From Acholoe squamosa (taxonomy: Eukaryota > Annelida > Polychaeta > Phyllodocida > Polynoidae), in contig OX439035.1 in the NCBI GenBank assembly GCA_949317995.1, positions 78,475,459-78,539,458 on the forward strand: a stretch of DNA of 64,000 nt, given 5' to 3'. How positions within the stretch are numbered: the stretch's first letter is position 1; each line of letters opens with the position of its first letter. Position numbers and translations under genes: made by a program. Of the stretch, positions 7,401 to 47,545 are shown piece after piece. The notes beneath the pieces were generated by a model that had not been told where the DNA came from, searched no databases, and was given only the letters and a program-made list of their open reading frames with translations.

Positions 7401-10400
7401 ATCTCATACTTTTGATTTTATTCGCAGATAAGACATTTCATCATTTGGAGCCCTATGGCAGATTAGCATTAGAGCATTTTAAGATTCAGAAATGCATCCC
7501 TGTAGCCTTTGTTTTAGAATTGTTCGTTTTGAAACTACTATATATATGTAGTACAGGTTTTATCTCAGTGGGTTATGGTACAATTGGATCATATTTTCTG
7601 TATTTGAACAAAATATTCACTGTCAAAGATCTCTATGGAGAAATCAGTGCTAAAGTGTGTGTTGCCATATGTGCATTTTTGTAAATCAGAGGAGGTTGAA
7701 GTGTAAGGCCACCTTGTGGAACTGCTACATTCTTTTCTGTGTAAAATTTTTAGTTTACATTGAAATAATGCTTTCTCAGAATATGTATCTACTATTGGTG
7801 ATGAAACATTAATTTGATTACTCCTTTCATTATATAAACGATTTTGTGGAACACTGAAAAGATGTATGTACTTACACTGTGCTCCCCCTCTACAGAGAGG
7901 TGGAGTGATCTGGCCGGTTTGCTGACCACTGGCCTGTGACGAGGTACAGACTATTACAAGTGATTGGCAGTTGGGTGTGTGTGTGTGGGGGGGGGGGGGA
8001 GGCAGAGTAGGCTTCTGGCAATCTTAGACAGTGTACACTCATAATGTCACACCTGTTGACTATGGCATTGAACATTGAATAAGACAGGTCCCTGTGGCAG
8101 CTGAGTGAGGTGCATGCAGAATGGACAGTCTACAGACTATTAGTACTTTGCTGCAGTGGGTAGTTCAGGTTGAATTTGTGCTATATACTACCAAAAGCCC
8201 AGATGATAGTATGCCCTATCTGTCTCACCAACTGAAACTAGACACAAGATTACAAGTCGCCGCGCCATGTCTCACAGAACTGTTCTCTACTATTGTATTA
8301 AAATCTACAACACTATGGTTTTATTAAGGATTGAATGCATGAGAGGTGCGCAGAAAGTCCTCCTGCAGGGCTGAAACATTTGCTATTATAATATCCCACA
8401 CCGTACAGAGCTCCCTGAGCGGCAGACGGTGTGGAAACCCCCACACTATAAAGAACTGGTGCCTGTCAGATTTAAAATTTGTATCAAATATTCTGTCATT
8501 GTTTCAGTTGGTTTTACAATGGATTGTCCGTCTGTGTGTGTCCCATCCATCAGTGGCAGACCGCTTTATGGACCTGGCCGTCATTGCTGTGACTACTCAT
8601 TCTGGTAGGTGGATATGATATTCATTTCATACCAATTTAAAAAGTTTTGTGGTGTGGTACTTGAACACTTATCTCCTAAGCTGCTTTCTCTGTGATGACA
8701 TAAAATTCACAAATGTCTTAAGTTTTTACCATGCTGGGCTCTGTCTTGCATCATGACATGGCCCAAACCTTCACAACATGTTGACCAACAAGCTGAAAGC
8801 ACCTTCCTGAGTAGGGGCCTTGAGGCTTGACTTGGTCTCTTTTAGTTTGCCGAACCATATTATGAAATGCGCTGTCCACCCAGGCACATGTGCTAGCATT
8901 GTCCACTATACAAACAGTAAACGTGTCTTTTCCCCAGATGAGAGTTCCCTGTTGGTGTGTGAGAGCCTGGCAGCTATTGGTAGTCATAGCAATGAGCTAC
9001 TCCCCAGCCTCACAGACGACCTGCTCACTGCGCTCAACAAGGCGCTCACCTCAACACACAGTCGGGACGGCATGGTTCGAGCACTCTGTACAGTACTGCT
9101 ACAGGCCTCTGTAGGTGAGGCAGTGGGTGAGAATGTGCGAGTGCCCATGTTGCATGCCCTGGAGGCAGTCACTCCGTGGACGGCATACCGAGTGGCTCGC
9201 CAAGCGGCACGTTATGGCCACCATCAAATGGCAGCACAGATATTTGATGGCCTGACCTCCAAGGTGAGTGTTCCATATCTGGTTTGTCAGTAATTCTACC
9301 GTTTTATGTAGGTTTAAAGGAAAGTATTCAGTTACCATTGGCTATCAGTATGACAGAGTTCTAAGAGTTGCTAAATGTTCAAAACACTATACGCTACCCG
9401 CCTGTCAATTAATCCAATGGTTAGAGACCATCTTGGTGCAAAAGAGTATAACACAGTCCCATACTTTCACCAACAGGTATCTACAGAGCATTTCTACTTT
9501 TGGATTGGAGCGTTAAAGTACCTTAGTGTGGCAGAGACCTTCCTACAAAGACTGGTTGATTCCACGTCTTCATATATCTCCAACATATCTGAAGCAGAGA
9601 CGCATTACCACAAAGCAATCTCCTCTCTAAAGGTAGGTTTATATACAAGTTTAAAACCTCTATGATTCAGCTTATACATCACTAGATATGAATTGGTTAT
9701 AGTGTCTTTTACACGACTTTTATTATCTTTTTGAAACTATGTATATGTAAGACAATTCACATTTACCTCTCAGATGTACCTCTCAGATGTATTGCCACTC
9801 ATTGTAAATTCGTCCTTTGGCTTCCTTCAGGCGGCCATGACCCCAGGTTCCCAGCTGACGTTCCAGTGTCAGTACCTGGAGTTACGTACACAGATGCTAC
9901 AGACACATGCACAGACAGTACACATGTGCTGTAGCTTCCAGACCAGTCCACCACCCGCTATTGCGTCTTCACTCGCCATCACCACTGGCAAGGAAATACA
10001 TCGATGTGGCCACATCGTCACTCAGGTACACCGCCAGATGCAGAAATTTCAGTTCAACAAATCAATTTCTGTTCAAAAGATATATGACTTTGAAAGATAC
10101 TTTTGTCTCAAAGTTTTATTGCTCATCTGTATTTCAGTGTAGGATTGTTATACCTTTGCTCCTTTTTCTTGTTTTGTAGATCCAGAAATGCAACCAACAG
10201 TTTGAAACACTTTGTCGAGAGTATGGTGAGCTCTACCAGTCATCATTTGATGCTGACCCGGGGACGCTGATGAACCTGCAAATGTATCCTTGATCGATTG
10301 TCATCTCAAGAAGACCATGTTACGTCATTATGTTTCCTTTGCATAGCAAATTATTTTGAATAATAAAAAGATATGAAGATCTCATGAATTTTAAGTGCTA

Positions 10401-13251: not shown

Positions 13252-13547
13252 TACCGTAATCTCCCGCGTATAAGGCGCAGCCCGCGTATAAGGTGCACCT
13301 AGAGTTTTGGAAAATTCTCAAAAAAATGAAAAATTCATAACTTTGGTTCTACTTAATGAATTTTCAAAATTCAAAAACCTATGGGTAGCTTGGGTCACCT
13401 TGGGCCCTCCTGGGCCCCATTTTGTCCTATTTTGACCAAGGGGGCATGTAATATATCAAAAGAAAGGTCTTGGTGTCCCCCTTGTGGATCCAATGAGAAC
13501 TAAAACCCCCCGTATAAGACGCGCCTTATACGCGGGAGATTACGGTA
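13252..13547. mobile_element. MITE, CGTATAAGGCGC family, subtype 1
   Basis: A 296-bp element runs from TACCGTAATCTCCCGC to GCGGGAGATTACGGTA, with near-perfect inverted ends. Its interior after the left end matches the element at 10616. It has no coding capacity. Confidence 0.8.
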
Positions 13548-13559
13548 CTGTTCTCTACA

Positions 13560-13805
13560 TACCGTAATCTCCCGCGTATAAGGCGCGCCTTATACGCCAA
13601 ACAAAATGCTGCTGAGTCTTATATGTGGAAGGGACATTGCCTTGAGTTTGGGGTGCGCCTTATAGGGGGGTATTTTTACTATAGAACAGTACTAAATTAG
13701 CAAAAATCTGCCCTTAGAGGTGCGCCTTATACGTGGACTTGCATTCTCTGAGTTGTGGGTGCGCCTTATACGCGAGCTGCGCCTTATACGCGGGAGATTA
13801 CGGTA
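13560..13805. mobile_element. MITE, CGTATAAGGCGC family, subtype 2
   Basis: A 246-bp element starts 12 bases after the previous MITE. It has the same terminal inverted repeats but a different interior, with repeated GTGCGCCTTATA motifs, which recurs inverted at 35363-35596 and truncated at 61261-61411. Confidence 0.8.
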
Positions 13806-13953
13806 TATGAATTAGTCTATAAGGCGCACCATGACGTTGGGCTGATCCTGTGAGGTGAAATCAGCCGTGATTCCACGTATAGCCCGTATTACTACAGTAA
13901 TATAGAGCTACTGATACTCATGAGAAAACAATTTCAAAATTACATGTCACAAA

Positions 13954-14128: not shown

Positions 14129-14537
14129 CTGAAGAATTGCAAAATTGTACATTTGTATAAAACAAACCCAATACAAAATACTTTGTTTTGCAAATATTCT
14201 AGATGTAGTTAAGAGTAAACGGGTTTCATTATTTCATACCCCCGCAGTTTATTAACAGCATCTGGATCTCTCATATTAATAACAGAGAATAGAATATTTT
14301 TATTATATACCGGGGGTATGTATTTATTTTAAGTGTTTATTTCCTGCCCTAGATTGAAGATAAAGGTTCAAGTACAAGTATTAAAAGAAAAATATAATCC
14401 ACCTGTGTATTCATGTTAGTCTGTGGGTTACCATGTAACCAGTAATAGGTTTTGGGGATACGATAGTAATTTCAACTTATTTGATACATAGGTATTTGAT
14501 ATTAGTATTATTATACGGAGAAGCATCCAACACAGAC

Positions 14538-14608
14538 TGGCACATGGCTATCTGAAAGGTCCACCAAGAGGTTTAGGAACCATTTCGTCATCAAGGCCAT
14601 CTGTGTTG
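14538..14608 (-). promoter_or_regulatory. SECIS element of the second selenoprotein W locus
   Basis: On the minus strand, helix I pairs CACA with UGUG and GGC with GCC. The quartet is AUGA (14591-14588) opposite the GA of AGAU (14553-14550), and the apical loop contains AAACC (AAA at 14574-14572). Helix II pairs GAAA with UUUC, GGU with ACC and CC with GG. It is a close copy of the element at 24105-24175; one G-U pair there is a G-C pair here, which supports the fold. A pyrimidine-rich acceptor (CTTTCTTTCCAG, AG at 14629-14628) precedes it, as in the other copy. Confidence 0.75.
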
Positions 14609-14792: not shown

Positions 14793-14923
14793 ATGCAAAT
14801 GCCAACTCCCATGGAATATTTTTGCATCGCATTCCCCTCAGTGAGTCTGCCTGCCGAGTTGAAAACGGCATACTCACTTCGGGGAATACTATGCAAAAAT
14901 ATTCCATGGTCATTGACATTTGC
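14793..14923. repeat. imperfect hairpin, possible small MITE
   Basis: Inverted arms include ATGGAATATTTTTGCAT and its complement ATGCAAAAATATTCCAT, plus CAGTGAGT and ACTCACT around a loop near 14860. It lies between the 18-codon exon and the SECIS of the second selenoprotein W locus, roughly where further coding exons would be expected. Confidence 0.6.
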
Positions 14924-14988: not shown

Positions 14989-15306
14989 CATTTCAATATA
15001 TCCTCCATATTTCCCCTTCAACTGTGATTCCAGTTTCCGGCACTGAAAATCAAGTGAATGAAATATGAGAGACAGTTTAAAACTGTAGACCCATATAGAA
15101 TGAAATACATTGGACCTTCCGGTATAAATCAAGTGTTCGACTAAAACATTGAATTGACTTTAAAAAGGGCAATATGTGAATGAACGCTGGTAAAATGAGA
15201 CAAGAAAAGAAAGGTCATGCATGCTAGCTTCAAGAGGATTATTGTGTTGAATTTTGCATACTTTGGACCAAGCCTTGAAGGCCTGGAGGCGTATCCTCAC
15301 GCACCA
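14989..15306 (-). pseudogene. second selenoprotein W-like locus, partial and probably disrupted
   Basis: Two exons match the gene at 25225-27855. The Sec exon starts after an AG acceptor at 15308-15307 and reads T GGT GCG TGA GGA TAC GCC TCC, giving GAUGYAS with UGA at 15299-15297, once a preceding TG completes the Cys of CGAU. The exon at 15042-14989 is exactly 18 codons (CRKLESQLKGKYGGYIEM), as in the paralogue, with AG acceptor and GTGAGC donor. The Sec exon has no usable donor at the expected place, the exons for the TGYFEV strand and the C-terminus were not found, and a 1.8-kb element ends at the Sec acceptor. Its SECIS survives at 14538-14608. A decaying duplicate is the simplest reading; a rearranged but live gene is not excluded. 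Confidence 0.65.
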
Positions 15307-15312
15307 CTGTTA

Positions 15313-17140
15313 TAGGCCGGGGGCTGACAGGGCCCACCATGCACCCCCCCCCCCACATCCCAAAGCGAGGGGTATTTTTTCGATCCTTAGGGTCCCCTGA
15401 ACAAGATTCAAGATGTTAACATTGATTATCTTTGTATGCACTACCGGTTTTGGCTCATTATCCATGTGCAGGTTCAGACCACTTTTGGGTCAATTTTGGT
15501 ACCAGGTTATTCAAGGGGTATGCTCAATCCCCAAGTTCTAAGACTATCTTACCTTTGTTTGGATCCTGAAGCTATTGGTCTTGTTGGAAAGAAGACATAA
15601 TAAGCGTTTCATTAAACCCTAATACATGTTTTTAAGTTCAGATTTAAGTGTATCAGACAGTCGGGAAGACGGAAGATTGAAATTACAAAGTTCCTTTTTT
15701 TTTACTGAAAATCTTAAATGCTCTCCAGATACATGTATAAAACTTGCCTTTATCCCCATCTAAGCACAATATCTAATATGATTTATGTAGGACAAACCTT
15801 TCTGAGTAATATGAGACATTTTACAGAATTCCTTGATGACTATGACACACATTATTACCTTGGACGCAAAGACACTACCTTGAGCCAATACAATGCTGTT
15901 CCATTTCAATAATCTCCCTCTTTATGTGAACGGATGTTTTTCCATGCTAAATCTTTATCAATTCTCCTGATTCTTGTGCTAAAAAGAGTGCTGATTAAGA
16001 ATATGCATGTTTTTACTTCATAAAATTTAATGGCGAGGCTGTATATTGCTGAAATTCAAAATGGCCGACAATAGATTCAGATGTCACTTTGAATTACATA
16101 AATGTGCAGTCTAGAAAGTATCTGGTGGGGCCTACCCCCTATAAATCACCTTAGTAGAATACAGTGTTGCTTTTGTTTTGTTGCTAAGTGGAGTGGTTGC
16201 CTAGGAACAGCAGCTTTGCATAGCAACCAAGCCTGAAAATATGCTCGAATGCTCATATCTGCATGGTTTCCTTTCAGCAACATACTCCCCTGATGTAAAC
16301 TTGTATATAACTCTTCTGTGACTTCCATCATAGACTAGGAATATAGGTGATAAAAGGTTGCTAGGTTGTGTGGTGGCCTAGCAATAGCAGTTTTGCATAG
16401 CAACAATGTCTAGATTCATACCTGTAGTGCATAGTCTCCCCTCAAGGACTTAGTTCACTGATTTCAAATTGCATATAGCTCCCTTTTGCACATCACATAG
16501 TATGAACATAGGTAGAAATGATTGCTATGTCATGTGGTTGCCTAGCAACTGCAGCTTTACATAGAACCCCATGTCCAAATCTATGCAGATAGTCACAGAT
16601 AAGTGTATGATCTCGCCTCAGGGATGTATTGCAACATACAGTTTATAATAGTAGCGAAAGGTTTGTCCTACATAAATCATATTAAATATTGTGCTTAGAT
16701 GGGGATAAGGGCAAGTTTTATACATGTATCTGGAGCGCATTTAAGATTTTAAGTAAAAAAAAAAGGAACTTTGTAATTTCAATCTTCCGTCTTCCCGACT
16801 GTCTGGTACACTCAAATCTGAACTTAAAAACATGTATTAGGGCTTAATGAAAAGCTTATTATGTCTTCTTTCCAACAAGACCAATAGCTTCAGGATCCAA
16901 ACAAAGGTAAGATAGTCTTAGAGCTTGGGGATTGAGCATACCCCTTGAATAACATGGTACCAAAATTGACCCAAAAGTGGTCTGAACCCGCACATGGATA
17001 ATGAGCCAAAACCAGTAGTGCATCCCAAGATAATCAATGTTAACATCTTGAATCTTGTTCAGGGGACCCTAAGGATTGAAAAAATACGTCGCGTTGGGAT
17101 GTGGGGGGGTGCATGGTGGGCCCTATCAGCCCCCGGCCTA
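15313..17140. mobile_element. long-terminal-inverted-repeat element (1.8 kb)
   Basis: The arms 15313-15802 and 16656-17140 are inverted copies of about 490 bp with few differences. Outer ends are TAGGCCGGGGGCTGA and its complement. TTA flanks both sides (15310-15312 and 17141-17143), consistent with a 3-bp target duplication. The roughly 850-bp centre holds three degenerate repeats built around GGTTGCCTAGCAAC-like motifs (near 16170-16230, 16350-16410, 16510-16570). No transposase frame is visible, so it is non-autonomous. TTA/TAA targets suggest PIF/Harbinger, but the superfamily is unproven. Confidence 0.8.
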
Positions 17141-17582
17141 TTAATGGTACAAAAATAAGAATGGTTAGAATAACTAATGAAATTAGAGCATATTTACATA
17201 GATCTCCCTCTTCCCACATTCTTCACATACATCATGTATATTAATTCGATAGACCTACTAATGCAGATAGCATTCCTGAATAACCTTTTACTATATCACC
17301 TAGACACCCCAGATACAATTATGTATATTCCATATCCGTCATTTTGTAGTGAGAGATACGTCCTAGTAGCGAAAGATAAGACCCTCTAACCCGACCCTCC
17401 AACACTGGTGGATCAATTTGAATACCTAAATTTTTAACAGATGCTGTGCTTTGTTTTTCTGGAAAATCGTAGCAATAAAATGTAATGAGTTTCATAAATG
17501 AAACATATCCAACCTAATATTGTGGATTTTCGGTGTGTGCGATGCATGCATTGTCTTTTGGGGGTCTAGATGGGGGGTCCCC

Positions 17583-17795
17583 ATGTCACATGTCGATTTT
17601 AAGAAATGGCCATGTCACTTGTCACTAAATTTCTATTTTCCCATGTCCTTGTCACTAGGCTTCATGTCACATGTCGATTTTAAGGAAAGGCCTTGTCTCT
17701 TGTCACTAACTTTTTTTCCTTTCCATGTCCTTGTCACTAAGCTCCATGTCACATGTCGATTTTAAGAAATGGCCATGTCACCCTGTCGAATTTAG
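17583..17795. repeat. tandem repeat, period about 80 bp, about 2.5 units
   Basis: The unit begins CATGTCACATGTCGATTTTA and continues through CCATGTCCTTGTCACTA. It recurs three times with minor changes and has no coding meaning. Confidence 0.7.
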
Positions 17796-18761
17796 GGGTC
17801 TAGGCCCATTCTTTTAGCAGTATCGTTTTGGGCACAAGTCAGCTGATGAGTGTAAATCTAGTTGAAGTTTGGATTCTCTGGCCTCTCTGTGCACATTGCA
17901 TCAGATTTGGTCCCACTTTCGGACCCAATGCCTCCACCTTTAAGTGTAATAGCTTGTACCACGGGTACCTAAACCGCACCCCATAGTTTAGGAAATAGAT
18001 GAATCAATATCTTTTAGAGCTTGAAGCCTGGCCTTCCTTAAAAAAACCATGCTTAGAGATGCTGTATATAGAGTACCCTTTCTTGATCCAATTTATCATT
18101 TTGCTTTGACCCTACCATACTTAGGAGGAATGGGTCTCCTATAGCTGCTGATAGCTTTTAATTTATTACAAGACTATTTCTGGAAAAAAAATATTCATCT
18201 TGCACAGCACTCGTTTAATGTAGGGTCTACCTACAAACTTTAAGGCGATCTGGTAGAAACTGGTGGTGGGACCCTGTGGACATTTTGAGAACTTTCACAT
18301 GCACACTAACTCCACCTGGTGTCTGACACCTTTGAGAAAAGTTTTTAGTTGAAAGTTCCAAGAGTAGTACTGGGGCCCAGTCAGTAGTACCTACAGACAG
18401 GTGTAATAAGCTATTAATGTATGGATATTTCCAGCTAACCTCACCGAGTCCTCCAATATCCATGCATTAATGGGTTTATTGCACTTATTCATCTTTTATG
18501 TATGAATTTCTTACCTTATAACCCCAGAATTAATCCAGGTGAAGATATTTGGTAAGTGCATGCGATCCACACAATTTGCCAAGCCGTCGTGGCCATGTTG
18601 TCACTCTGCCCGACATACCTTTTTTCGGGTAGAATGCAATGGTGTTGAGTCCTGTACTTCTAGCACCGCCAAATATACGATCTCTAGTTGGTGTTCGCCT
18701 ACATTTTGTATCAATTTTCTTCGAAATAAATGAGAATCCAATGATTTTACATTGTGATCCA

Positions 18762-19693
18762 CATATCAAGCAGCATTCAATGAACTGCGTGATAGTTACA
18801 GAGATCACGTACCAATCTACACCGACGGATCACATATGGCAGACAAAACAGCATCTGCAGCCGTTCTAGGACCCCATGCCTTCAAAGAACGCCTGCCAGA
18901 CGAAGCCTCCATCTACACAGCAGAGCTACATGCGTTATACCTAGCACAAGATCACATTGAGACATCAGAAGGCAACAACTACCTGATTGTATCTGACTCC
19001 AAATCATCACTGTCAGCAATGCAGCATAGCAAGTGGACACACCCTCTCGTGAAAAGAGTGTTGGAACGACACAATAGTCTTGCTCTAGCTGGAAAGAAGA
19101 TAGCGTATGCTTGGGTACCAGGCCATGAAGGAATCCATGGCAATGACCTAGCAGACGTTGCTGCCAAGGATGCAACAAATCAAGTTCCAATAGATATGCC
19201 TCTACCATCAGAGGACCTCAAACGGAAAATCAGGAAATACATCCACCAAAAGTGGCAAGAGTCATGGGACGCTGAAAGAGACAATAAACTCTACAAAATA
19301 CAGCCCAAGATAGGCACAACCAAGAAAGCCAAATGCAAGAGCAGAAGAGAAGAAATTGTCATGAACAGACTAAGAATAGGCCACACCAGACTAACGCATT
19401 CACACCTGATGAAGAGAGAACCCAGACCGCTTTGCAACAGGTGTCAAAAACACCTGACGGTGGAACATTTCCTTGTGGAATGTAGCCAGTGCCCCATCAG
19501 GGCACAATACCATCAATGTACAACACTGAAAGAGTTATTTGATACCTGCAGACCGGATACAATACTTGCATATGTCAAGAACCTGGGATACTACAGTCAA
19601 ATTTAAACAGTAGAAACTTTCTTCCATAAAACCTTTAGGCACAAATAGCCATCACCAGTAGCTGACGTGCCGTAAAACACTAACTAACTAACT
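18762..19693 (+). mobile_element. 5'-truncated non-LTR retrotransposon with RNase H domain
   Basis: The open frame from before 18779 to 19606 encodes an RNase H domain with its acidic core visible: YTDGS, TAELHAL, VSDSKSSL and GNDLADVAAKD. A Cys/His-rich tail follows (CNRCQ...VEHFLVEC). This layout is typical of I/Jockey-group LINEs with a C-terminal RNase H. The 3' end is a short (TAAC)n-like tail, ACTAACTAACTA. ATTGTGATCCA is duplicated on both sides (18751-18761 and 19694-19704), an 11-bp target duplication. Endonuclease and reverse transcriptase are missing through 5' truncation, but the RNase H frame is intact, so the insertion may be young. Confidence 0.9.
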
Positions 19694-20042
19694 ATTGTGA
19701 TCCAATGCACACGGCCATTTTGTCTTGTTTAGCGAAGCTGGGAAGGTGCCCAGATGTAACGACATACTTTCGGCTGAAGAACTAGGTCAAATACAGTTTG
19801 AGCAAGGAATGGCCGGACGGGGCGGGTGCCAACCCGTATCGCTATGGAAAATCATTGGATTCTTATCTATTTAGAAGAAAATGGAGAAATTAAGCATGGC
19901 ATGTTCTTCAAGGATATCTAAGGATGTTTCCCTGTTAATAACTCGACCTGGCACCGTTGGATTCTATGCTAACGAGGTGTGTAAACATCAGGTATGTCGG
20001 AAAACTTATTCAAATCCTTCATGTACATTGATTTCTAGTACC

Positions 20043-20110
20043 GGTCGGCTTGGTATAGTGGACAGCGAGCTCGTCTCCTGCCACAGCGGCCGGGGAACGA
20101 TTCCCATAGG
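20043..20110 (+). repeat. tRNA-like segment in unit A
   Basis: The box A TGGTATAGTGG matches TRGYNNARNNG. The box B region is GAACGATTC, one change from consensus. It is the counterpart of 21063-21130 and is less well preserved. Confidence 0.55.
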
Positions 20111-20314
20111 GCCTGGAACGGTTTTAATTGGAAATGTATGGCGAGGTTGACTTTGTATACTTCACCAATTTATTAACATGTCCAGGTTGAAACCAGCACC
20201 TTCTTGAAGACAAACAAAAGGTCTCAGAGTGCGGCTATACCCCAATAATGGAACTGGGTTATGACCAAAAAAGCACGCTGATGGCCCTGAATCATGAGAT
20301 AATCAGCTATCAAT

Positions 20315-20423
20315 GCATGGATATTGGAGGACGAGGTGAGGTTTGCTGGAAATATTCGCCCGACCGTGCAGCGGGAGGGTGAATATTTCCAGCTAACCTC
20401 ACAGAGTCCTCCAATATCCATGC
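20315..20423. repeat. palindromic junction between repeat units A and B
   Basis: Arms 20315-20357 and 20381-20423 are inverted and about 90% complementary around a 23-base spacer. They are the right end of unit A and the left end of unit B, so the two units abut. Confidence 0.8.
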
Positions 20424-21330
20424 GTTTATCGCACTTATTCATCCATTATGTATTAATTTCTTACCTTATAACCCTGTATTTAATGTAGGAGAAGACATTT
20501 TGTAAGTGCATGCAATCCGCACGGTTTGCCAAGCCGTCGTGGCCATGTTGTCACTCTGCCCTACATACCTCCACCTTTACACACATTTTTCGGGTAGAAT
20601 CCAATGATGTCAAGTCCTGTACTTCTAACACCAACAAATATACGATCCCTTCTTGCTGTTCACCTACATTTTTCTCTCCATTTTCTTACAAATAAATAAG
20701 AATTAAATGATTTCACATAGCGATCCAACGCACACGGCCATTTCGTCTCGTTTAGCGAAGCGGGAAGGTGCCTGGATGTAACCTGACATACTTTCGGCTG
20801 AAGAACTAGGTCAAATACGCATCAAACAAGGAATGGCCAGACGGGGCGGGTGCCGACCCGTATCGCTATGGAAAATCAATGGATTCTTATTTTGAACAAA
20901 ATGGAGAAATTAGGCATGGCATGTTCATCTAGGATATCTAAGGAAATTTCCCTATTAATAACTCCACCTGGCACCATTGGATTCTATGCTAATGAGGTGT
21001 GTAAACATCAGGTATGTTGGAAAACTTTTTCAAATCCTTCAGGTACATTGCTTTCTACCACCGGTCGGCTTGGTATAGTGGACAGCGAGCTCGTCTCCTG
21101 CCACAGCGACCGGGGATCGATTCCCCGTTGAACCCTGAACGGTTTTAACTGGAAATGTATGGCGGGGTTGACTTTGTATACTTCTCCAATTTATTAACAT
21201 GTCCAGGTTCAAACCAGCAGCTTCTTGGAGAAGAATAAAAGGTCTCAGGGTGCGGTTAAACTCCGATAACGGAACGGGGTTATGACCAAAAAAGCATGCT
21301 GATGGCCCTGAATCGTGAGATAACCAACCA
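20381..21330. repeat. repeat unit B, uninterrupted copy without a recognisable right end
   Basis: It aligns with unit A along its length but has no LINE. At the place corresponding to the LINE target (near 20718) it reads GCGATCCAACGCACACGG, an empty-site relative. The right inverted end found in unit A is not visible here; similarity stops near 21330. Confidence 0.65.
21063..21130 (+). repeat. tRNA-Gly-like SINE head with Pol III boxes
   Basis: Box A is TGGTATAGTGG and box B is GATCGATTC, 33 bases apart. The T arm is perfect: CGGGG, loop ATCGATT, CCCCG. The anticodon region CTCCTGCCACAG resembles tRNA-Gly(GCC). The acceptor stem does not close, so this is a tRNA-derived repeat, not a functional tRNA gene. 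Confidence 0.65.
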
Positions 21331-21570
21331 TATTGCAGTGACAGCCGGGCAGCAGTGAACCAGGGACCTGCACCAGTTTGATAATTATTACTCATTAAAT
21401 AATGCCACTACAGCCCCATACCTTGGTCAGTCCTCTTAATTTACTGGACTTTTGTCAATGACACTTGCATGTCAAACATCAGGGCCAGTATCTGATAGAA
21501 ATAAAGTCAGTGATCTGGTTCACTGTTGCCCAGCTTGGCGACCTCCCTGTTGATAAATAATGACCACTCC

Positions 21571-23712
21571 CTTAGCCTGAGGCTTAGGGAGAGTGTAACC
21601 TCATTTTACACAAATAGGTATTCAATGTCCTTACCAATTTCTTGCACACTTGTATAAAGCTTTCTCCTCCTCAGCCTCAATGTCTCCCTTTATCTGAACT
21701 ATTCATGAAGACGAAAGCCTACCTCCGTCTACTTCGAACTCCTACCCTTCTTTTCAAAATCTAATTCCATGTGATTTACTGCATATCGGGGTGCACAAAT
21801 GTAAATATCCATAAAGTGGGGTAGCGAGGAGGGGGACTGTCTGTTAGAAGCGGGATACTTTCTATTTCAAAACACTGTCCCTGCCTACACCAATCTACAG
21901 TGCAGTAGCCTTTGAAGAACCAGTTGGCATTCCAGATCTATGTGTATTATCGATGCCTGATGCTACCTTTGGAGTAGATATATTTTACAAGACAAACTCG
22001 ACCTTCTAAGAATGTTAAAGATGTTGATGAACTTTATCCACATGAGGTGGACAGGCCCTATGTTTCAAAGGAACAAAGTCGAAGGCTGAGGCAATTCCGG
22101 TGAATAGTATGCGCTAATACGCAAGGCATATTTACAGGTACTATGGATACATGAGTTTACAAGTTATAGACATAATATCCATTTACAAGAGAAAAATTAA
22201 GCTTATGTACCATCATTAGATCCCCGGACATACCAATAATTTTGAAACATAATCAGACCTATTTAGTAGACACCCATTACCTGTACCAGATTGCCAAATT
22301 ACAAAAAATCATTTGGAATTACCGGTACTACAATATCATCTATTGTAGAGTATAAAGAGTTCCCGTATCCCTTTACCTCACTCCGATGACACAAAACACC
22401 CGAGAGTTTGAGGGTTGGTCCTTTTATCATTGGGAAGGGGGACATTTTCATAGATCTAGCTAAGCAAATTTCCATACACTACTTCTGAAGCTCCAAGCCC
22501 CACAGCTAGCATTGCCTTTGCAAAGAGGACAATAACATTTACGTTTTTACATCCTCTTAGTAGTGTGAGTCCCTTTACTGCCATGTAGTTTATGTTAATC
22601 GATGATGAGATTTTGAGCCCCCTCCCTCCCATATAGGGAGGGCAGGCTCCTAACATCCACGAGGAACCGACCCCAATATGTTAATCACATCAGATTATGA
22701 TTAAATTTTGTGTCTAAATTCTGAGCACTTTTTTTTTTCATTTGCGAGCTGGCACTAATCATGCAAGCCCTTTTATTGAGCAAATTTCACGACATGAATG
22801 AAGTGATTATGATATTTGCTCAATATAATTACAAGCTCATTGAGTCAACCTGTTACAGTATATGTTCGTACTACTGAAATTTCTAATATCAATCTACCCA
22901 GTGTTTTTAGGCAATGATGATATGATGAAAATGTGAAAATGAGAGTAACAGAGTATCACTGTAAAAATACCATTTTGACACCAAGCAAAAAGGACTAGTA
23001 TATATTGATACTTGTTGCCAAAATATGAATAATGGACTAATATGGACTAGTACAAGTAATGACACAATATGACAAGAATACATCTAGATTTGGCTATAGC
23101 CCAGTAAAAACCTGGGTCAAAATGAAGGGTGGGATGTAGGGAATTTAAGTACAAGGCTGTTTGAAAATTAAAGATTCTTTATTACTATTATCCATCAGAT
23201 TACATCGTCTTTTCACAAACTCTAGACCGCTGAACAGAAATATCGGGTCGATATACTGAAATCTCATGCTAAACCGCCGCTGCTAAACCCAGGTTATCGC
23301 AGGTAATGACTACAGTCACGCATTTGTTTAAATATTCGACATTAAGAGACAAATCAATCCGTAAATCTGGATTATTTGTGAAAACACAGATTGGTTTGTA
23401 TACAATCAAAACCTAGAGCTTAAGACAAGGTGCCATGCATTATCTTTAATTTAAAGATAATCTCTTATCTTTAAATTAATAGAGATTAGAAGGGTGTCTG
23501 CCACTCACTAAAAACGAGTCAAGTAAATGGGCATATATAGATTGTATAGTGGAGGTCATAGGCAAGTAACCAATAGAGCTGTTAGGTGTAGATGAAGTAG
23601 ATCTATGGTATTACTTGACTCGTTAATAAGCAAAATGGACCTGAGTGTAAAACCTTAAAATATAATACTGCGATAATGATACCAGTAGCTGTAGAGAAAA
23701 TCTCTTATAGCC
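21571..23712. other. gene-free stretch between repeats
   Basis: It starts with a half MITE end (GATAAATAATGACCACTCCC, TTA border) near 21552-21573. The rest is AT-rich unique-looking DNA in which I see no exon or RNA gene. Confidence 0.4.
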
Positions 23713-23715
23713 TAA

Positions 23716-23967
23716 GGGAGTGGTCATTTTCTAACAAGGAGGGGGGGTTGGTGAAATTCCATGCGGGCGTGACGAAAATTTTTCCGTCCCCCCTCCGAGG
23801 GGTCTGAAATTTTCCTTCCCCCCTTTTATTCTATAGTCGCACGCGGGCTTTTTCGCTGAAAAGGGGCGAAATATTTTTTGTCCCCCCCCCCTAAGAGGGG
23901 TCTGAAATTTTTTTGTCCCCCCCCAACCCACTAACCCCCCCCCTGTTGTTAAAAAATGACCACTCCC
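23716..23967. mobile_element. MITE of the GGGAGTGGTCATT family
   Basis: Terminal inverted repeats GGGAGTGGTCATTTT and AAAATGACCACTCCC are flanked by TAA on both sides (23713-23715 and 23968-23970). A 3-bp TWA duplication is the PIF/Harbinger signature. The interior is rich in poly(C) and poly(T). The minus strand carries an AATAAA at 23830-23825. Confidence 0.8.
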
Positions 23968-24104
23968 TAAGCCTTGTAATAACTCTATGATATGATGTTG
24001 AATATGACATTCTTTGGAAAACAGTACTTGATGTTCCATCACCTATTATAAATCTCTTTCTTCCATATGCAGAGAAGCACTTCTAGAATTACATCAACAC
24101 AGAC

Positions 24105-24175
24105 TGGCACAGGGCCATCAGAAAGATCCACCCAGGGGTTTAGGAACCATTTCGTCATCACGGCCATCTGTGTTG
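24105..24175 (-). promoter_or_regulatory. SECIS element of selenoprotein W
   Basis: SECIS elements recruit the machinery that decodes UGA as selenocysteine. Read on the minus strand, helix I pairs CACAG with CUGUG and GGCC with GGCC. The quartet is AUGA (24158-24155) opposite UGAU (24120-24117). The apical loop holds AAACCCC (AAA at 24141-24139), and helix II pairs GAAA/UUUC, GGU/AUC and CC/GG. Spacing fits the family. It lies in the last exon of the selenoprotein W transcript, after an acceptor CTCTCTTTTCCAG whose AG is at 24197-24196. Confidence 0.85.
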
Positions 24176-24478
24176 TTTTAACTCCAGAAGATGAGCTGGA
24201 AAAGAGAGAAATGAATGTATGGAATATCTGTTGGTATTATAAGATATGGATTCTCTTATAATTCAAAAGTTCTGTTTTCAAGTCAATACTTGTACCACAC
24301 AGGGGCACATGATAAATTGATAACTTTGGTGCCTTCTGTCACCTCCCTTGCGTGAATCTAAGGCGTGCTGTGCCTTATAGAGTCTGGGTGCGTTTTATAG
24401 GCAGGTTACTTTTAGCATTTCTTTCTACTCAAGGTGTGCCTTATACGCGGGATTCGCCTTGCATGCGGGAGATTACAC

Positions 24479-24737
24479 TACCATAATCTCCCGTGTATAA
24501 GGCGCATCCCTCGTCTTACCTAGAGTTTTAGAATATGGTAAAAAAAATTTAAAAACTTTTGTTCTACTCAGTGGATTTTACAAATTCAAAAAGCTATATG
24601 TAGCTAGGGACCCCCGACCCCCTAGTGTCCTATTAGGGTAATATATCAAAAGAAAGGTCTTGGTGTCCCCCTTGTGGATCCAGGGAGAACTAAAACCTCG
24701 CCTATAAGACGTGCCCTATACATGGGATATTACGGTA
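24479..24737. mobile_element. MITE, CGTATAAGGCGC family, subtype 1
   Basis: Ends are TACCATAATCTCCCGTG and ATGGGATATTACGGTA. The interior shares CAAAAGAAAGGTCTTGGTGT with the copy at 13252-13547. It lies in the selenoprotein W 3'-UTR intron. Confidence 0.75.
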
Positions 24738-25129: not shown

Positions 25130-25224
25130 CCTATGGTATATGTTGAAACTAGCTGCTGTGCTGTAGAAGCCACATTGATACAAAATACATACCTTCAATC
25201 CGCACCACATCTGATTAATAATTT

Positions 25225-27855
25225 TCAGGACAAAGCCTTGTCAATAGCGGCCGTTATCTTGCCCAGCTTAGCATTGTTGTTCACGTACCCATCGCCATTC
25301 TGAATCAAACGACAATTATTTCTTTGATTTCAATTTGGCCATGACAAAATTTAAGCACCGACTTGGGAATCAATTGATGATTACTGGTGTGCTTTTAAAA
25401 CTATAAAACTAAAAATACTAGCTAACATAACATCCATCAATATTGGAACTCTCATCGTACTTTTGTTGTGACTTGGGATTCCAGTACTTCACTCACAGTA
25501 CGCGATAATTTTCTAGGTAAAATTGACTGCTAAAATGAAGGTAAAGGCTAGGCCTTAGGCCTACGTGTAATTGACTACTATGTCCTATGTTCAATGGCGA
25601 CCACAGAATCTCTATTCTTTTATTCATTCTGCTGCCCTTCAAGGGTTGATGTGATGCCATTTCCTGATCCGTTGTATCTTAAGGTGAACTGGTGCTATGT
25701 GGCACTGAAAGGGTTAATGACCACTGGTGCATGAAGGCTGGAAGAAATAGACTAATCCCCTATTGTTAATGGCCACTGAACTGGTACACAACCTAATCTC
25801 TGTCTCTGAGGTGTAAATGCTACCCATACCATCTACATGGCCTATGGGCTACCTTCAACTATATTATATACCAAAAACATATACACCAACACCAATGTGT
25901 ACAGAGACAGAGTATGGGCCATATTTCCCTCTTTGTCCCTATGTCTGTCAGAATCCCTCTTTGTTTCAATGTGGTTTTGTGCCTCTGTCTATGTATATAT
26001 AAGTATGTGATTGACGTCTAGTCAATCACATAATAAGGAGATATCTGAGATGCCCAGAACTGTTCCAAAACCTGTGATGATAGTATGCCATATTATTATT
26101 GACCATATGCGTAATGCCCAGCCTCCAGTGCATACCTTCTTAGAATGGATGAGTTCATTGTTGACGTGCACTTCAAAGTAGCCAGTGACCCCAGGAGTTG
26201 CCTCATACCTCTGAAAAAGAAGGAAATGATTTCTATAGATTTGACGTCTACGCACAAACTACAAAGTTGTGAATTTCTTGCACATTCGTAGGTATATATT
26301 AGTATCTATCATAATTCTCTTGTATAAGCCATGGCTTATACCAGAATCCAAATCAAAATTAGGCTTATAGGATCTGCCAAATGAAGGGGTGCGGCTTATA
26401 CGAGGGTATTTGGCATTATAGAACAAAAATAAAAGTCGGGGGTGCGGCTTATACGAGGGTGCGGCTTATACGAGAGAATTTACGGTATTAACCTAAAACC
26501 TATAGGGCATTAGCACATTAGGCTATGGAGGCCGCCATTAGACCCCGACTGCACTATGACTAACACCTTCAGCCCCCGTCTCCGCAGTAAATGCCAGGGA
26601 TGCTTCCCATTGGTCAATAATACAATAGCCATGTGCCGTAAATGTGCCGCAGCTAATACGTGGAACTACTGAAAGTCAAACCCCAGGTAAGACTTACAGC
26701 ATTCTCGCAAAGTAGGAATGCTGTTTATAAAACCATATGCTTGGTTTTATAAGTTAGAAAAATACTAGAATGTCACAGTGAAACCTAAATATTCACGCCT
26801 TCAATTGGTCAAAAATGTTGATATACACAGTCATGTATCAAAAAGACACCTAAGAATAAGTTGGCCAAGGAGTTTGTTGCAGTGATTATCAACGAATACC
26901 TAATCATAAGAAATTTTCAGATGGAAAATCCAGAATAGCCTAGAGTTACATACCCATTCGAGATCGCCTCGAAACTGATCCTCCAACTGGGACTTCAGTT
27001 TTTGGTACTAATATGAAAAAGAAAAGTTCAACATAAATACATTAGTACTGTACCTGATATACAGAAGCAGTGTTAGTTAGCACATGTATCTCGACTAGAA
27101 TTTAACTTGTGTTTCCTAAGTTACCATTTACTGTCATCTGGTGTGCTTAGTTAGGTGAGGCCTGGATGCATGCAGCGACTGAGGGGGACAATTTCACTAT
27201 ACTCTTTTTCGAGGTTGTGGGATGTCTTATGGACACAGCCATTGCTGAAGCTGGTTATCAGCGGTTATCACTAACAACAGTTATCAGATGTGTACCTTCT
27301 ACCCCCGCAAAGTCTGCAGTGAATAGTAGGGATTATCCCACAGAGTGGCTTTTAAGCCAGGGGTAGCTATGCTATATATTAGGACCTCGCTTGCAGGTTG
27401 CCATTCTTACAGCGACCACCGTGGAGGTAGGAGTTAGCCTCCTTACCCTCCATGGCACAAAGCTTGCAAAAGAGACCAGCGAGCAAGCCGGCCTCACGGA
27501 ACCTACACAGCGAAAGCCATGGCATTAAGCCATAGGGGTAGCCCACCTGTTCGCATTACTCTCTACCCGCCCTATTTCACGGGATAATCTAACTCAAAAT
27601 GGCTATGACAAATACATGACAACCTGCAAGCGAGGTCCTGCTATATAGAATAGCTACCCCTATGGCTTACTGTCATAGCTCTTAGGAATAATTTATATTA
27701 GACTACACAAGTTAGGTTTAATATTCAATTACTTCATGAGCTGATGATTAATCCCTCATTCGGTCAATACAACCAAACATCTCATACATTACAAACAAAC
27801 ATTATAAATCCTATGATTTAGTTGACATACCTTAGAGCCGTACCCTCAGGCACCA
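25225..27855 (-). CDS. SELENOW: selenoprotein W, Sec-containing, 5' exon not located
   Basis: A small thioredoxin-fold redox protein of the cytosol with a CxxU active site. Exons on the minus strand: 27855-27831, 27007-26954, 26210-26136 and 25299-25225, all phase 0 at their ends with AG/GT borders. The first found exon reads T GGT GCC TGA GGG TAC, so a preceding TG gives C-G-A-U; the Sec UGA is 27848-27846. The following exons read YQKLKSQLEDQF, then TGYFEVHVNNELIHSKK, then NGDGYVNNNAKLGKITAAI ending KALS and TGA. Recalled vertebrate SELENOW has CGAUGYKSKY, TGFFEVMVAGKLIHSKK and GDGYVD in the same order. Length after the Sec fits the family. The start exon, about ten residues ending in Tyr-Cys, was not identified. 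A SECIS lies downstream at 24105-24175. Confidence 0.92.
26307..26487. mobile_element. MITE related to the CGTATAAGGCGC family
   Basis: The right end is GAGAGAATTTACGGTA and the interior repeats GTGCGGCTTATACGAG; the left end near ATTCTCTTGTATAAGCC is weaker. It lies in a selenoprotein W intron. Confidence 0.6.
27353..27669. mobile_element. 317-bp MITE with roughly 45-bp inverted ends
   Basis: Left arm: TAAGCCAGGGGTAGCTAT, then GGACCTCGCTTGCAGGTTG. The right arm, ending at 27669, is its inverted copy. It lies in the intron just 3' of the Sec exon of selenoprotein W. No frame inside resembles a transposase. Confidence 0.75.
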
Positions 27856-28079
27856 CTGCAATGAGATGAGAGAAAATCATGTATTAATGATGAGTCATTT
27901 AACACGCACATTATATAATGCTAATTCTAATCCGGTCATCTTCTATTGTGAACTGGCTTCTCTGCAACAACACATAATACTCAAGGTTCTCTCCACATGA
28001 TACCGGCGTGCCACATGCATCCTTTTCTCTGGTGCCAGTGTAATGTTATACAAGCATCACCCCCCGTGTCATTTTCAAC

Positions 28080-28319
28080 TACCATAAACTCCCGCGTATA
28101 AGACGCGTCCTCTACGCCAAACAAATGCCTGGTGCATCTTATAGGATCTACTGAAGTTTGGGATGCGTCCTATACGAGGGGTAATTTTAATATAGAAATG
28201 TACTAATCTTACAAATTTCAGCCTTAAAATGTGCGTCTTATACGCGAAAATGCATGTGCTGAGTTTGGGGTGTGTCTTATATGCGCAGCGTGTCTTCTAC
28301 GTTTACGGAGTTTACGGTA
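28080..28319. mobile_element. MITE, CGTATAAGGCGC family, subtype 2-like
   Basis: Ends are TACCATAAACTCCCGCG and ACGGAGTTTACGGTA, with internal GCGTCTTATACGCG motifs. It lies about 230 bases upstream of the Sec exon of selenoprotein W. Confidence 0.7.
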
Positions 28320-29110
28320 AATATACCACATAATTAGGCCATAATTTTTGAACAAACACTGGCAGATACATGTACTAGCTTCAAAAACTGGCCAAATCCT
28401 CTCAACTCCTTTCCTGGGAAATCTTTGGTTAATCGTTATAAAAAAAAAATAATAAAAAATTCACCCTCTCCACATATGTGATGTGCAGAATCCATTGACA
28501 AAAGAAAAATTTTTAAAAAATCAAAAAAAAAAATCGCCCTCCCTCTCCATTTTTCAAAATGAAAATCCATAGACTAACTTTTTAATTTGGTGTGGCCTGA
28601 TGGACTAAATCACTGACAAATAGTGACTGAAGTGACCTAATACAAGTCATGTGCATTTTTACGGGAATTCAGTATCAGTACTTACGAGTTCAACTGCCTC
28701 CAAAATCGTGAAAAGTAGGCTTTTTTATAGTCTTTAAAATGGTCCAAGGTTAGGGGGGGCGCTTATTAGGGGGAGGGCGCTTATAATTATTAGGTCGAAT
28801 ACGATACTATCTAACTGCTGACAAACAGTGACTAAGTAGTTGAGTCTGTAGGGTTGTCATGACTTTTCTGATGCATGGCGACATAAAGCATTATGCAGCC
28901 CTAAGCATTAATCATTGGTCGTGTTCAGAAAATACAGGGCTTTATTGATGCATCATGACGACATATAGCACTCCAATAAGTGTCGGCATGATACTTCATA
29001 CACCACTGCAACGAGTATTCAAGCGACTGATATCGCTGGTAACTCAGAAAGCATAGGTCTCGCAATTTTGACACTCTCTTGCCGAGTCTTGGAGTTCAAT
29101 ATCCCAGACA

Positions 29111-29386
29111 ATGAAAAAACGTAGTTCATATGAGGGATTAATCATCAATCATGTCTTCTTACATTGTAACATGCCCGAGATGAGAAACGCACGGTCAGTG
29201 TTTGAAACAAAATACCTCAAGTTCGTTGACTACTATAAAAGACATGATGACACTAGGAAACTTTCTCAAATACTAGCAGTGGCCCCATATTGCAAATCAT
29301 CTAAAAGGCCAGGAGCTGTAAACTGTATATGTGGCCAGGTGAGGGAAAATATGCCTCCTGGGGAGAAATGGCTTTTTAAGGTTTAA
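29111..29386 (+). pseudogene. possible LINE C-terminal fragment
   Basis: The 91-residue frame contains NHVFLHCNMPEMRNAR and CICGQV. The HxxLxC-type pattern resembles the Cys/His tail after the reverse transcriptase of many non-LTR elements. No domain beyond that is visible and no ends were found, so this is tentative. Confidence 0.3.
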
Positions 29387-30890
29387 GTCATGGGCTTTAA
29401 AATGAGATATCTTGAGCTAAAATATCCCTGATAGTTTTGCTGTAATTGCTCGTCAAACTTAGGTTGGTGTGTACAACTGAAAATAGGAAATAAGCTCTAG
29501 ATGCATTATATCCTATCATAAACACTAATAATGCAAAAAATACAGTTTTGTAGAAAAATAACCAAATAACAGTAATGTTTTTGCCATAAAATTAGTTCTA
29601 GAGGGAATTTTTGAGCTCTGTTTTCGGTTCTGGGTTCCTGAGGGGATTTTAAAAAAGGATTGTGGGAAAAATTCCCAATTGGAATAGGGGAGTGGTTTCC
29701 ATGACAACCAGAAATTGTGTTATCTACCAATTTTTTATGTTTCCATGGCAACCAACATTCCAAAAATGGAAAATTTTCAGTGGTGATGGAATGATTTTAA
29801 GCATATACCACTGGATTTCACATCAAAAATGCATCTAAAGCTTTTTATAGCATATTTGTCAGTGTTTTACCCATATACTGCCCCCTGGTGGCCAAAACCA
29901 GTACTAAAAATCCCCCCCCCCCCCCCGAGGCACGTTCTCCCCTGTTGGGCCACATATACTCAGATATAAAATCTGTCTACAACATTGTAAATGAAAACCT
30001 GGTGCTGACATAAGTGTACCTGTACATTAGTCAATAAAGCCATCTTGAATCTGAATCTTGAATCTATGTATGATCATTTGCATGACACCCAACCTGGCCT
30101 GACCTGACACCCAAACTGACACCTCAATAGGATTACATTGACAAAGCGTCTTACATCCATTTTGAGATGACCTACTTTTTTGAAACCTTAATATCAGAAA
30201 GATAAGAACCAGATAACAGGTAACCATTACACCTCTATGATCCTGAATATGTACACTATTTCATGACAGGTTTCATTTTCTCTCATATCTAACCATTTTC
30301 ATGTTATTTGAGGTTGAAGTGAACAGTCCCATCTCTGAAACAGGCATTTTCAGTTCTTAAAGTGACACCCTGCCCCCACCTGTCTCTAAAAACTCGGAAC
30401 TTTCCGAGTTGATCAAGACCCACCAGGACAACATTCCTGCATCGTGACAAGCAATGTGCATGGTGAATTATTGCACTATCCAGCCGTTAAAGAATTAATA
30501 AAACTGTAATGTTGTAGATTTTAATAGAATAGTAGAGAATAGTCCTGTGAGACATGGCCTGGCGACTTGTTTAAGTTGGTGATAGAATTATTCAGATTTA
30601 TTATGTAGAAGAACCATTGGAGTAAATCAGGACTAAAAGTGTAGTTATTGTAAGGCCATGGTGGTGAGTTCCGCATATATAGTTGAACTTATTACACGAC
30701 TTCTGTGATTTTGGGTGCTTTTTCTGGATATTCCCATGCACATACCTGTCGATATTGCATGGCATGATGCATGCATCATGACTTTTGTAAGGTGTGCGGT
30801 TATCCAAGGATAACAGGCACCCAGTGCTATTATCCATGGATAACATGTCTCCTTACATGTCATACGTTACATGTTAAAACCTACGAAATA
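29387..30890. other. gene-free stretch
   Basis: AT-rich DNA with a poly(C) run at about 29911-29926. I see no exon, RNA gene or paired repeat here. Confidence 0.35.
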
Positions 30891-30895
30891 TTCAT

Positions 30896-30972
30896 TGCCA
30901 GGGTAGGGGTCAAACCTGCACTCTACTGATCCCAAATCCAACTCCCTATGCATTGCGCCACAGGGACTGACG
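30896..30972 (-). repeat. tRNA-like segment, minus strand
   Basis: On the minus strand TGGCGCAATGC resembles box A and GTTTGACCC resembles box B with one change. It probably represents a tRNA-derived SINE head. Confidence 0.45.
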
Positions 30973-31069
30973 AGAAACAGTGTGTTTGCTTGGTTAGAAT
31001 GCCACCAGCTGCTGCTCCCATAACGGCGACGACTGCGGGACATGTTCAAACCAAACCAAGCCAAGCCGG

Positions 31070-31340
31070 GCTGTGTGTACTGGTGGTCTAGTGGGTAGCG
31101 CTCAGCTTGTAGAGGTAGGCGGGATGAGTCCCGGTTCGGGCGTACATTTTTTTTCACAGTATGTAAACACACTATGGCTGGCTTCAAGTACCGGGGAGGG
31201 AAAGATTTTTGTTTTCAAATTATATTTAGACCAAACCAACAGCTGCCGGGCGCCGAAGTGTGTATACCGATCGTGTACACACACTATGGCAGGCTTCGAG
31301 TCCTGGGGAGGGGAAACAATTTTTGTTTTCAACTTGAATT
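31070..31340 (+). repeat. tRNA-like head followed by two tandem units
   Basis: Box A TGGTCTAGTGG and a box B-like GTTCGGGC lie at about 31082-31136. They are followed by two similar units of about 105 bp that begin ACACACTATGGC and contain TTTTTGTTTTCAA. This looks like a SINE with a tandemly repeated body. Confidence 0.5.
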
Positions 31341-31769
31341 TATTGATATTCTATTGATTATCTATTGATATTGTTTAATAAAATAAGTAGTTAATGGATA
31401 TGTCATATATATCATATACATTCATTAATTACTTGTTCAATACACCCCCTCCCCTACATGCCTAGGAGACTGTAGAACAGTGTATGTTAAAGAACTGGAC
31501 TATATGTATACTACACTCTACTGGTGGTCGGCATTGAATGGTTCTAATATGTCTGGAACTACTGATGTCAATACAGATGCTGTAGGGCTAAAGGTATATG
31601 AGTGGCAAGTGTGTGTTGTCAACTACTCTTTAATAGGCGTTGTAGGCCTACTCTCACCCAGGCTTGACCCATCCAGCCCAAAAATGTGTGTGTAAATGGT
31701 CAGGTAGCTATACCATGAGTCGAAATTAGTTCACTGGTTTGTTTGCCTGCAGAGACCTTTTTCCCCCCA

Positions 31770-31922
31770 AATCGTAACCTTTCTTCTGGTACCAAAATTA
31801 TTAATCTGCGATAAAAATAAGGTCCCCTGGCACTGATTATACCAAGCAAAACACTGTTTTTAGTTGGGACTATTTAGGTGTCCTAGGCTTACCTGGGCGG
31901 ATTACTACCGTGACACCTCGAG
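31770..31922 (+). repeat. dispersed repeat, copy 1
   Basis: It matches 48753-48902 closely in the same orientation, including CTGCGATAAAAATAAGGTCC. No ends or frame were recognised. Confidence 0.65.
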
Positions 31923-32473
31923 GCGTTCGGGTAGCGGTTTTCTTACATTTTGCAGTGCATTGTGGGTGGGGGTGACCTTGAACACTAACTACACAACCTT
32001 AGCTTGTTCCCTCCTTCCCTTTCCACCCCAGCCAGGTCTGGCTAGGTACCAGTCCTTAACTATGCTTGGGAGGGTAGTAAGTTGACTTGGGGATCAACAT
32101 TGACCCACATGGGGAGGACCAATAGGGGGTGGCCTTACAAACCAGCATTGATCCCTCGGCTGTACTCCGAACGCCTTGACTGTAGACCATCTCGTCATTC
32201 AGCATTGGTCACAACCCCCCCCCCCCAAATTGGTAACCCCTTCTGCTCTGTAGACAGGCTACACCAAGTTTAGCATTGCTCTCTTCATAGAGATTTACGG
32301 AGATTTTAAACATTGAATATCGTTTTTAAATACAGAAAATGTGACCCAAATCTACTATAACCCCCTGAGATGAAAGCTCTACAGCATATATGTAGCGGTT
32401 TCAGAACAAATGCTAATGCTAATATGCCAAATGATGAAATGATCTGCGAATAAAATTAAAAGTATGATGTATG

Positions 32474-34067: not shown

Positions 34068-34095
34068 AAAATTAAAAGTATGATGTATGTTCTGA

Positions 34096-34295
34096 AAATC
34101 CCTTTACTGATAGGTAAGTACACACACTGTAGTTATTACATTATATTATTGTGCAGGAATAGTGTATAGCAGAGGAGCCACAAAGAAAAATAGACTATGG
34201 GTCCTCCCTATGCTTCACACCGTGGCGACTCTGAACCATACACAAGTCAACTAGTCTCATTAAGTACTACTTAGAGTCGCTGCGCTAATTATCAT
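34096..34295 (-). repeat. inverted copy of the INTS7-intron repeat at 7192-7386
   Basis: Shared features include GTAATAACAAC-like and GGCTCCTCTGCTAT segments read on the minus strand. It begins just beyond the Penelope-like element. Confidence 0.6.
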
Positions 34296-35059: not shown

Positions 35060-35150
35060 TTGTCACAGTTCTTCACAAATTTAAGTTCAACCCTACAACC
35101 CCTTTGGATGCTAACTAAGGATGGTGTGAGCTTCATATGGCCAGAGACAG
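35060..35150 (+). pseudogene. short Ty3/gypsy-type pol fossil
   Basis: The frame reads FFTNLSSTLQPLWMLTKDG, matching the segment that links reverse transcriptase to RNase H in gypsy-type elements. Only this fragment is recognisable; the element is broken and old. Confidence 0.5.
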
Positions 35151-36098: not shown

Positions 36099-36193
36099 TT
36101 AGTCAAGGCTTTAGAGTTGGACAAAGTCAACCCAGTCATAATGGTCAAACCCCTAGGCTAGCCTAGGCCTAGCTCACGGAGATGAGAGTAAAC

Positions 36194-47197: not shown

Positions 47198-47545
47198 AGC
47201 TCGAACCCGACCAAACTCCAAAGGGTTTTACCCTGGGCTGGGGTCTACTCAGAGTCTGAGTCAGACTACTGGTACAAAGGCTTGTCAAGTGTCAAGGATT
47301 AGACTAGAAACGATTTAGCAGACCATTACTTACCAATAGACTACAAAAATCTCCACTTTACCCATCTTGTTTGAGTGAGTTTAGAACCCACGACCTCCTT
47401 CGTTGCCAGAGCGAGTCAAATGCAGGCTCAAAGGCAAAGCTGGCCAACCACCACCACCAACCGGGAAAACATACGCCGTCGTAACATTTCCCAGCGACAC
47501 AATAACAAACTCCATTTCGCTCCCGGCCCGGTGCCATCAGTGAAA

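Follow-up and report, generated by a model that had tools for sequence, protein, structure and literature searches.

A long-inverted-repeat element in the Sec-exon acceptor of a probable decayed selenoprotein W copy in the polychaete Acholoe squamosa

What becomes of a selenoprotein gene when a mobile element comes to lie between the pyrimidine tract and the AG of its Sec-exon acceptor? The question is raised by a stretch of 64,000 nucleotides from Acholoe squamosa (contig OX439035.1, positions 78,475,459 to 78,539,458), the whole of which is hereafter denoted the window and supplies all coordinates below. A sequence-only reading had placed a long-inverted-repeat element, with its TTA target, directly before the CAG of the acceptor of a Sec exon, and had proposed that the insertion may have killed or re-routed a second selenoprotein W locus; the inverted repeats and both TTA copies are seen, and the minus-strand order is as it described. 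A transposon at a selenoprotein W splice site has no prior report among the matches listed in the open-licence literature, as far as the accessible portions of those texts go.

Two selenoprotein W loci

The window contains one complete-looking selenoprotein W gene (locus 1), made up of six exons:

47334..47365, minus strand: exon 1, coding part; reads MGKVEIFVVY, ending TG/GTAAGT
27831..27855, minus strand: exon 2, the Sec exon; reads GAUGYGSK
26954..27007, minus strand: exon 3
26136..26210, minus strand: exon 4
25193..25299, minus strand: exon 5; stop TGA at 25227-25225, donor AAG/GTATGT after 25193, exon end set by inspection
24095..24175, minus strand: SECIS; Rfam match 24168-24103, putative exon 6 from 24195

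Joined, the exons read as a selenoprotein W of 86 residues that contains a single in-frame TGA. It carries the CxxU motif in the reading CGAUGYGSK, and exons 2-5, with C entered for Sec, match the Pfam Rdx family (PF10262) at 46 bits, against a cut-off of 22.6. Because 19.5 kb separate exon 1 from exon 2, sequence and phase are the sole basis for assigning exon 1. The SECIS, located in the 3′ UTR, aligns to positions 1-64 of 64 of the SECIS_1 model and has the SECIS motifs AUGA, AAA and GA, and the stretch has a conserved duplicate at locus 2. Its score of 21.2 bits is below the gathering score of 35, and Rfam by itself would miss it.

About 9 kb downstream, on the same strand, lies locus 2 (15306-14528), with three recognisable parts, primed below to distinguish them from their counterparts at locus 1:

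15262..15306, minus strand: exon 2′, the Sec exon; reads T-GGT-GCG-TGA-GGA-TAC...; some 20 additional bases precede its GTATGC donor
14989..15042, minus strand: exon 3′ (CRKLESQLKGKYGGYIEM); flanked by AG and GT
14528..14608, minus strand: SECIS′; putative exon 6′ from 14627

Exon 2′ has 20 of the 25 bases of exon 2 and shares its acceptor phase; minus-strand positions 15309 and 27858 are the two places in the window with the pattern CAG-T-GGN-GCN-TGA-GGN-TAY, which 100 shuffles never produced. A scan of 127,894 placements, covering both strands, ranks exon 3′ first after exon 3 itself, with 35 of 54 bases identical against 29 for the runner-up; no further placement that reaches 26 matches has AG and GT beside it, and in exon 3′ these stand exactly at the borders. 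SECIS′ is identical to the SECIS at 74 of 81 bases (91%; BLAST E 1.9e-28), with all seven differences outside AUGA, AAA and GA. Locus 2 keeps both a Sec codon in context and the SECIS core.

Were the Sec-exon match a product of chance, the element would lie in ordinary intergenic DNA, and the scores against family models do lean that way: exons 2′ and 3′ together give 14.2 bits against the Rdx cut-off of 22.6, and SECIS′, like its counterpart at locus 1, falls short of the Rfam gathering score, at 18.8 bits. Three parts in the correct order and on the correct strand nonetheless speak against it, as do the shuffles, the homology of SECIS′ and the placement rank of exon 3′, on which grounds we reject a chance match, the outcome that would have undone the sequence-only reading, as having practically no probability. 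What that reading had called a second selenoprotein W locus is accordingly homologous in exon 2′, exon 3′ and SECIS′, as a partial copy only. A second locus is in itself unsurprising, since two or three selenoprotein W genes were found in four of six invertebrates surveyed, according to the part of that survey available to us (PMC3473315).

Several other features surround the two loci. Between exon 3′ and SECIS′ is a short inverted-repeat hairpin (14795-14923; 57-nt arms, 84%), matched far below gathering scores by several microRNA families and perhaps a small MITE. An Integrator subunit 7 piece (8811-9293, plus strand; Pfam INTS7_N, 58 bits) lies on the opposite strand, converging on locus 2, and plus-strand frames after 9293, up to 12868, may be further parts of it; with the transposon frames and the split gene, this match marks the DNA as eukaryotic. 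A dispersed repeat family, its units resembling CGTATAAGGCGCGCCTTATACG and delimited by TACCGTAATCTCC, has several copies around both loci (13252-13808, 24433-24737, 28080-28322, 35367-35597 and 61261-61371). Within intron 1 of the complete-looking gene, at 39082-44269, an integrase-core frame (42961-43806) and other retroelement-like frames stand between two 145-nt direct repeats, 95% alike and 5,043 nt apart, which are perhaps LTR parts. Two further frames are each possibly a retroelement remnant, one matching RNase H in Pfam at 52 bits (18758-19606, plus strand), the other giving weak matches to GIY-YIG and Siva that do not reach the cut-off (33175-34071, minus strand), and dense arrays of 80-nt, 166-nt and 21/42-nt repeats occupy 56056-60420.

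The element and the acceptor it divides

The insertion and the splice signals on either side of it are arranged as follows:

15313..17140, no strand assigned: long-inverted-repeat element, 1,828 nt, termini TAGGCC...GGCCTA, without a long reading frame
15313..15802, plus strand: left arm, 490 nt
16656..17140, minus strand: right arm, 485 nt
15310..15312, no strand assigned: left TTA copy of the target duplication
17141..17143, no strand assigned: right TTA copy of the target duplication
16180..16575, plus strand: three degenerate direct repeats inside the spacer, the others 82% and 73% like the first over 55 nt
15307..15309, minus strand: native CAG, intron 1′ acceptor
17164..17168, minus strand: branch-point candidate CTAAC, branch A at 17165
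17138..17140, minus strand: new TAG supplied by the end of the element, at 27 nt from the branch A

The left arm and the reverse complement of the right arm are 94.9% identical over 491 columns, and enclose a spacer of 853 nt in which Tandem Repeats Finder reported no repeat. Twenty-six frames of at least 40 codons overlap the element, the longest of 69 codons; six of the 26 were compared with Pfam and gave no transposase match, the two matches obtained both being far below cut-off. No second copy is present within the window, and a pattern built from the inner arm ends had no match there, in a search that carries little weight. There were likewise no exact matches in viral and bacterial/archaeal collections, where a eukaryotic element is not expected. 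The element has the terminal inverted repeats and target duplication of a non-autonomous TIR DNA transposon and presumably arrived by transposition; we keep it unclassified within the non-autonomous TIR elements.

Read on the minus strand, TAA (15312-15310) is followed by CAG (15309-15307) and by exon 2′ from 15306. The empty site rebuilt with a single TTA (...ATTTTTGTACCATTAACAG) agrees with the sequence given by the sequence-only reading; the stretch preceding exon 2′ in it, with one TTA kept, is TTCTAACCATTCTTATTTTTGTACCATTAACAG. In the intron 1′ acceptor the element parts the pyrimidine tract from the AG, and the branch point and tract, said earlier to have been removed, have rather been displaced by 1,831 nt. 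For the branch-point candidate CTAAC at 17168-17164, the distance from branch A to the AG is 27 nt in the empty site and 1,858 nt with the element, and 112 AG dinucleotides now occur from branch A through the old AG inclusive. TTAATAG, composed of the duplicated TAA and the TAG of the element, replaces TTAACAG at the same 27-nt spacing from branch A. Splicing usually takes the first suitable AG after the branch, which makes the new TAG the simplest replacement acceptor; a reading continued from exon 1 through it would meet a stop after 26 residues.

Splice sites were scored with a rough, general table, which discriminates poorly, as the low rating of the locus 1 exon 5 acceptor (0.35) indicates. 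The empty site scored 3.15, the new TAG 1.18 and the displaced CAG 0.91; with 2.66 for an AG at 17069 inside the element and just 0.35 for the locus 1 exon 5 acceptor, these values are not decisive between acceptors. The empty site does score higher, as had been claimed in calling it the better acceptor, but on so rough a measure the difference is modest. The empty site looks to be a sound acceptor, and the displaced CAG, which outscores the exon 5 acceptor in the same rough terms, may still be usable.

A transcript reaching intron 1′ would find the branch point and tract facing the element-end TAG at the distance formerly held by the native AG; it would most easily be spliced into the element, with the Sec exon lost or rarely used. 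The re-creation of an AG at the native distance by the element end is thus a plausible and concrete route to re-routing. Of the earlier proposal that the locus had been killed or re-routed, it is the second part that gains from the TAG 27 nt from the branch candidate, whilst killing is unproven, given the other lesions described below.

The same inverted repeats allow a different outcome to be considered. In the predicted fold of 1,931 nt of the transcript, one arm has 471 of its 490 bases paired in register, to within 12 positions, with the other arm. If this hairpin formed before splicing, branch A and the old AG would be 32 nt apart when counted through the base of the stem (27 before the insertion); with all predicted pairs used the count is 19 nt, starting from the neighbouring A. 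Such a hairpin could fold out the 1.8 kb so that the Sec exon is still joined, and locus 2 might then make a SECIS-bearing RNA, for example one encoding a short selenopeptide or serving as a decoy for SECIS-binding protein. We give this model of a splice-tolerant element only a slim chance. If true, it would mean that a transposon can invade an intron at its most sensitive point and yet not abolish splicing, and a natural insertion, in a gene of animal type, would offer a test of the idea that structure shortens the branch-to-AG distance.

Damage beyond the insertion, and what it implies

Locus 2 looks damaged apart from the element, with missing exons and, among the five tested, no GT donor that keeps the frame. 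Whole-window ungapped scans (best 12 minus-strand and best 3 plus-strand placements per exon) gave no exon 1′, 4′ or 5′ above background, and among the best 25 exon 1 placements listed no convincing candidate lies within 15313-24000. The best candidate for exon 1′ in that range, at 16962, falls inside an element arm and was set aside, as was MFQNYC at 22235, which scores like background. A remnant of exon 5 fused into exon 2′ (CAAGGCTTGGTCC vs CAAGGCTTTGTCC) was likewise discarded at E 17, a chance level. The missing exons may be located beyond the window or have diverged past recognition.

Five GT donors lie within 110 nt of the exon 2′ start, and none of them joins exon 3′ in frame. Of the eight GC dinucleotides in this interval, four would preserve the frame, and none of the eight has AG/GCAAGT, the usual form of a GC donor. 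Locus 2 does not yield a complete five-exon reading frame. Differences between exons 3 and 3′ fall 7, 5 and 7 of 18 at codon positions 1-3, respectively, with no sign of selection.

The introns add little to the shared sequence. In a same-strand comparison of 15312-12800 with 28400-23900 there was no clear homology beyond the exons, the SECIS stretch and dispersed repeats; in that of 17144-24094 with 27856-47333 the clear matches were dispersed repeats, the strongest at 23921-23810, and 17144-21546 had no match with E <0.03. SECIS′ is better kept than exon 3′ (74/81 vs 35/54; Fisher p 2.4e-4), and a wider match of 110 columns gives 94/110 (Fisher p 0.004 vs exon 3′); both stretches were chosen as the best-matching ones, a choice which favours a difference. 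Such preservation alongside unshared introns is hard to square with long neutral decay: either locus 2 was functional until fairly late, or gene conversion renewed SECIS′.

We consider it probable that locus 2 is a decayed partial tandem copy of the upstream selenoprotein W gene, retaining exon 2′, exon 3′ and the SECIS exon, and that a non-autonomous DNA transposon with inverted repeats of about 490 nt entered a TTA at the boundary of tract and AG in the intron 1′ acceptor, so splitting it. That locus 2 goes untranslated, and how the spliceosome would behave at the split acceptor, we infer from the features above. Most likely this decayed copy carries several lesions, with no order among them implied. 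The insertion could instead have been the killing event, locus 2 having been a working selenoprotein W paralog until its acceptor was split, with the frame break and exon losses following later; the conservation of SECIS′ suggests a late end of function, the arms are still 94.9% alike, and the acceptor looked sound beforehand. The identity of the arms provides no date for the insertion, however, since arms can later be made alike, and the missing exons or the frame break at the GT donors would each have sufficed alone, so that we regard this order of events as unlikely.

It is also conceivable that exons 2′, 3′ and 6′ constitute an alternative downstream exon set of one gene, with the exon 1 at 47365 in common. 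Just one convincing exon 1 exists in the window, and strand, order, the acceptor phase of exon 2 and the borders of exon 3 are all the same in the two sets; but a transcript of this kind must skip locus 1 exons 2-6 and the 3′ end of that locus, exons 4 and 5 have no counterpart, and the frame from exon 2′ to exon 3′ is lost with all five GT donors tested, which together leave it very improbable. For the partial tandem copy with a split acceptor, the presence of other damage makes the insertion part of the anatomy of gene decay, not proof of how locus 2 died. Taken in that way, the window would provide a snapshot of a duplicated selenoprotein gene in decay, its SECIS outliving the reading frame and a transposon end re-creating an AG at the right place.

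Comparison with known systems

The element shares its 3-bp TTA target duplication with PIF/Harbinger transposons, for which TTA/TAA duplications are described in the portion of the source we could draw on (PMC2213677). The arms of such transposons are 14-25 bp, in contrast to about 490 nt here, and the element end reads TAGGCCGGGGGCTGA, without the G(N)5GTT motif, which was set for plant (Medicago) elements. A further difference is that no transposase was found in the element (six of 26 frames against Pfam), although non-autonomous copies lack the DDE transposase anyway. Long inverted repeats are shared instead with Foldback/Mutator-type elements such as Tetris and Tm1, and Tetris resembles the element further in having a middle without apparent coding capacity; their target duplications are mostly 8-10 bp and not 3 bp, in the excerpts available (PMC4079207, PMC3169594).

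With its CxxU motif and 86 residues, the complete-looking gene resembles selenoprotein W of the Rdx family (PF10262), from which locus 2 differs in retaining just exons 2, 3 and the SECIS exon. Mammalian SelW and SelV are described, in the sections of PMC3316567 that we used, as having six exons, with coding sequence in 1-5 and the SECIS in exon 6, and locus 1 shares this plan of five coding exons and a SECIS exon 6. From the same sections, the conserved SelW pseudogene of primates comprises two coding exons and a recognisable SECIS stem without GA near its end. Locus 2 is, like it, a SelW copy probably without function whose sequence is well kept and whose SECIS stem can still be recognised, but differs in keeping intron positions and the GA of SECIS′; an insertion at an acceptor is absent from that description, to the extent that it was accessible (PMC3316567).

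Hairpins that bring branch point and AG closer together have been described for yeast introns, in the part of PMC12350175 consulted, and the predicted fold of the element likewise sets a hairpin in that interval, where it can reduce the effective distance. Unlike those hairpins, as there described, the stem here is about 490 bp and transposon-borne, and its effect on splicing is a prediction.
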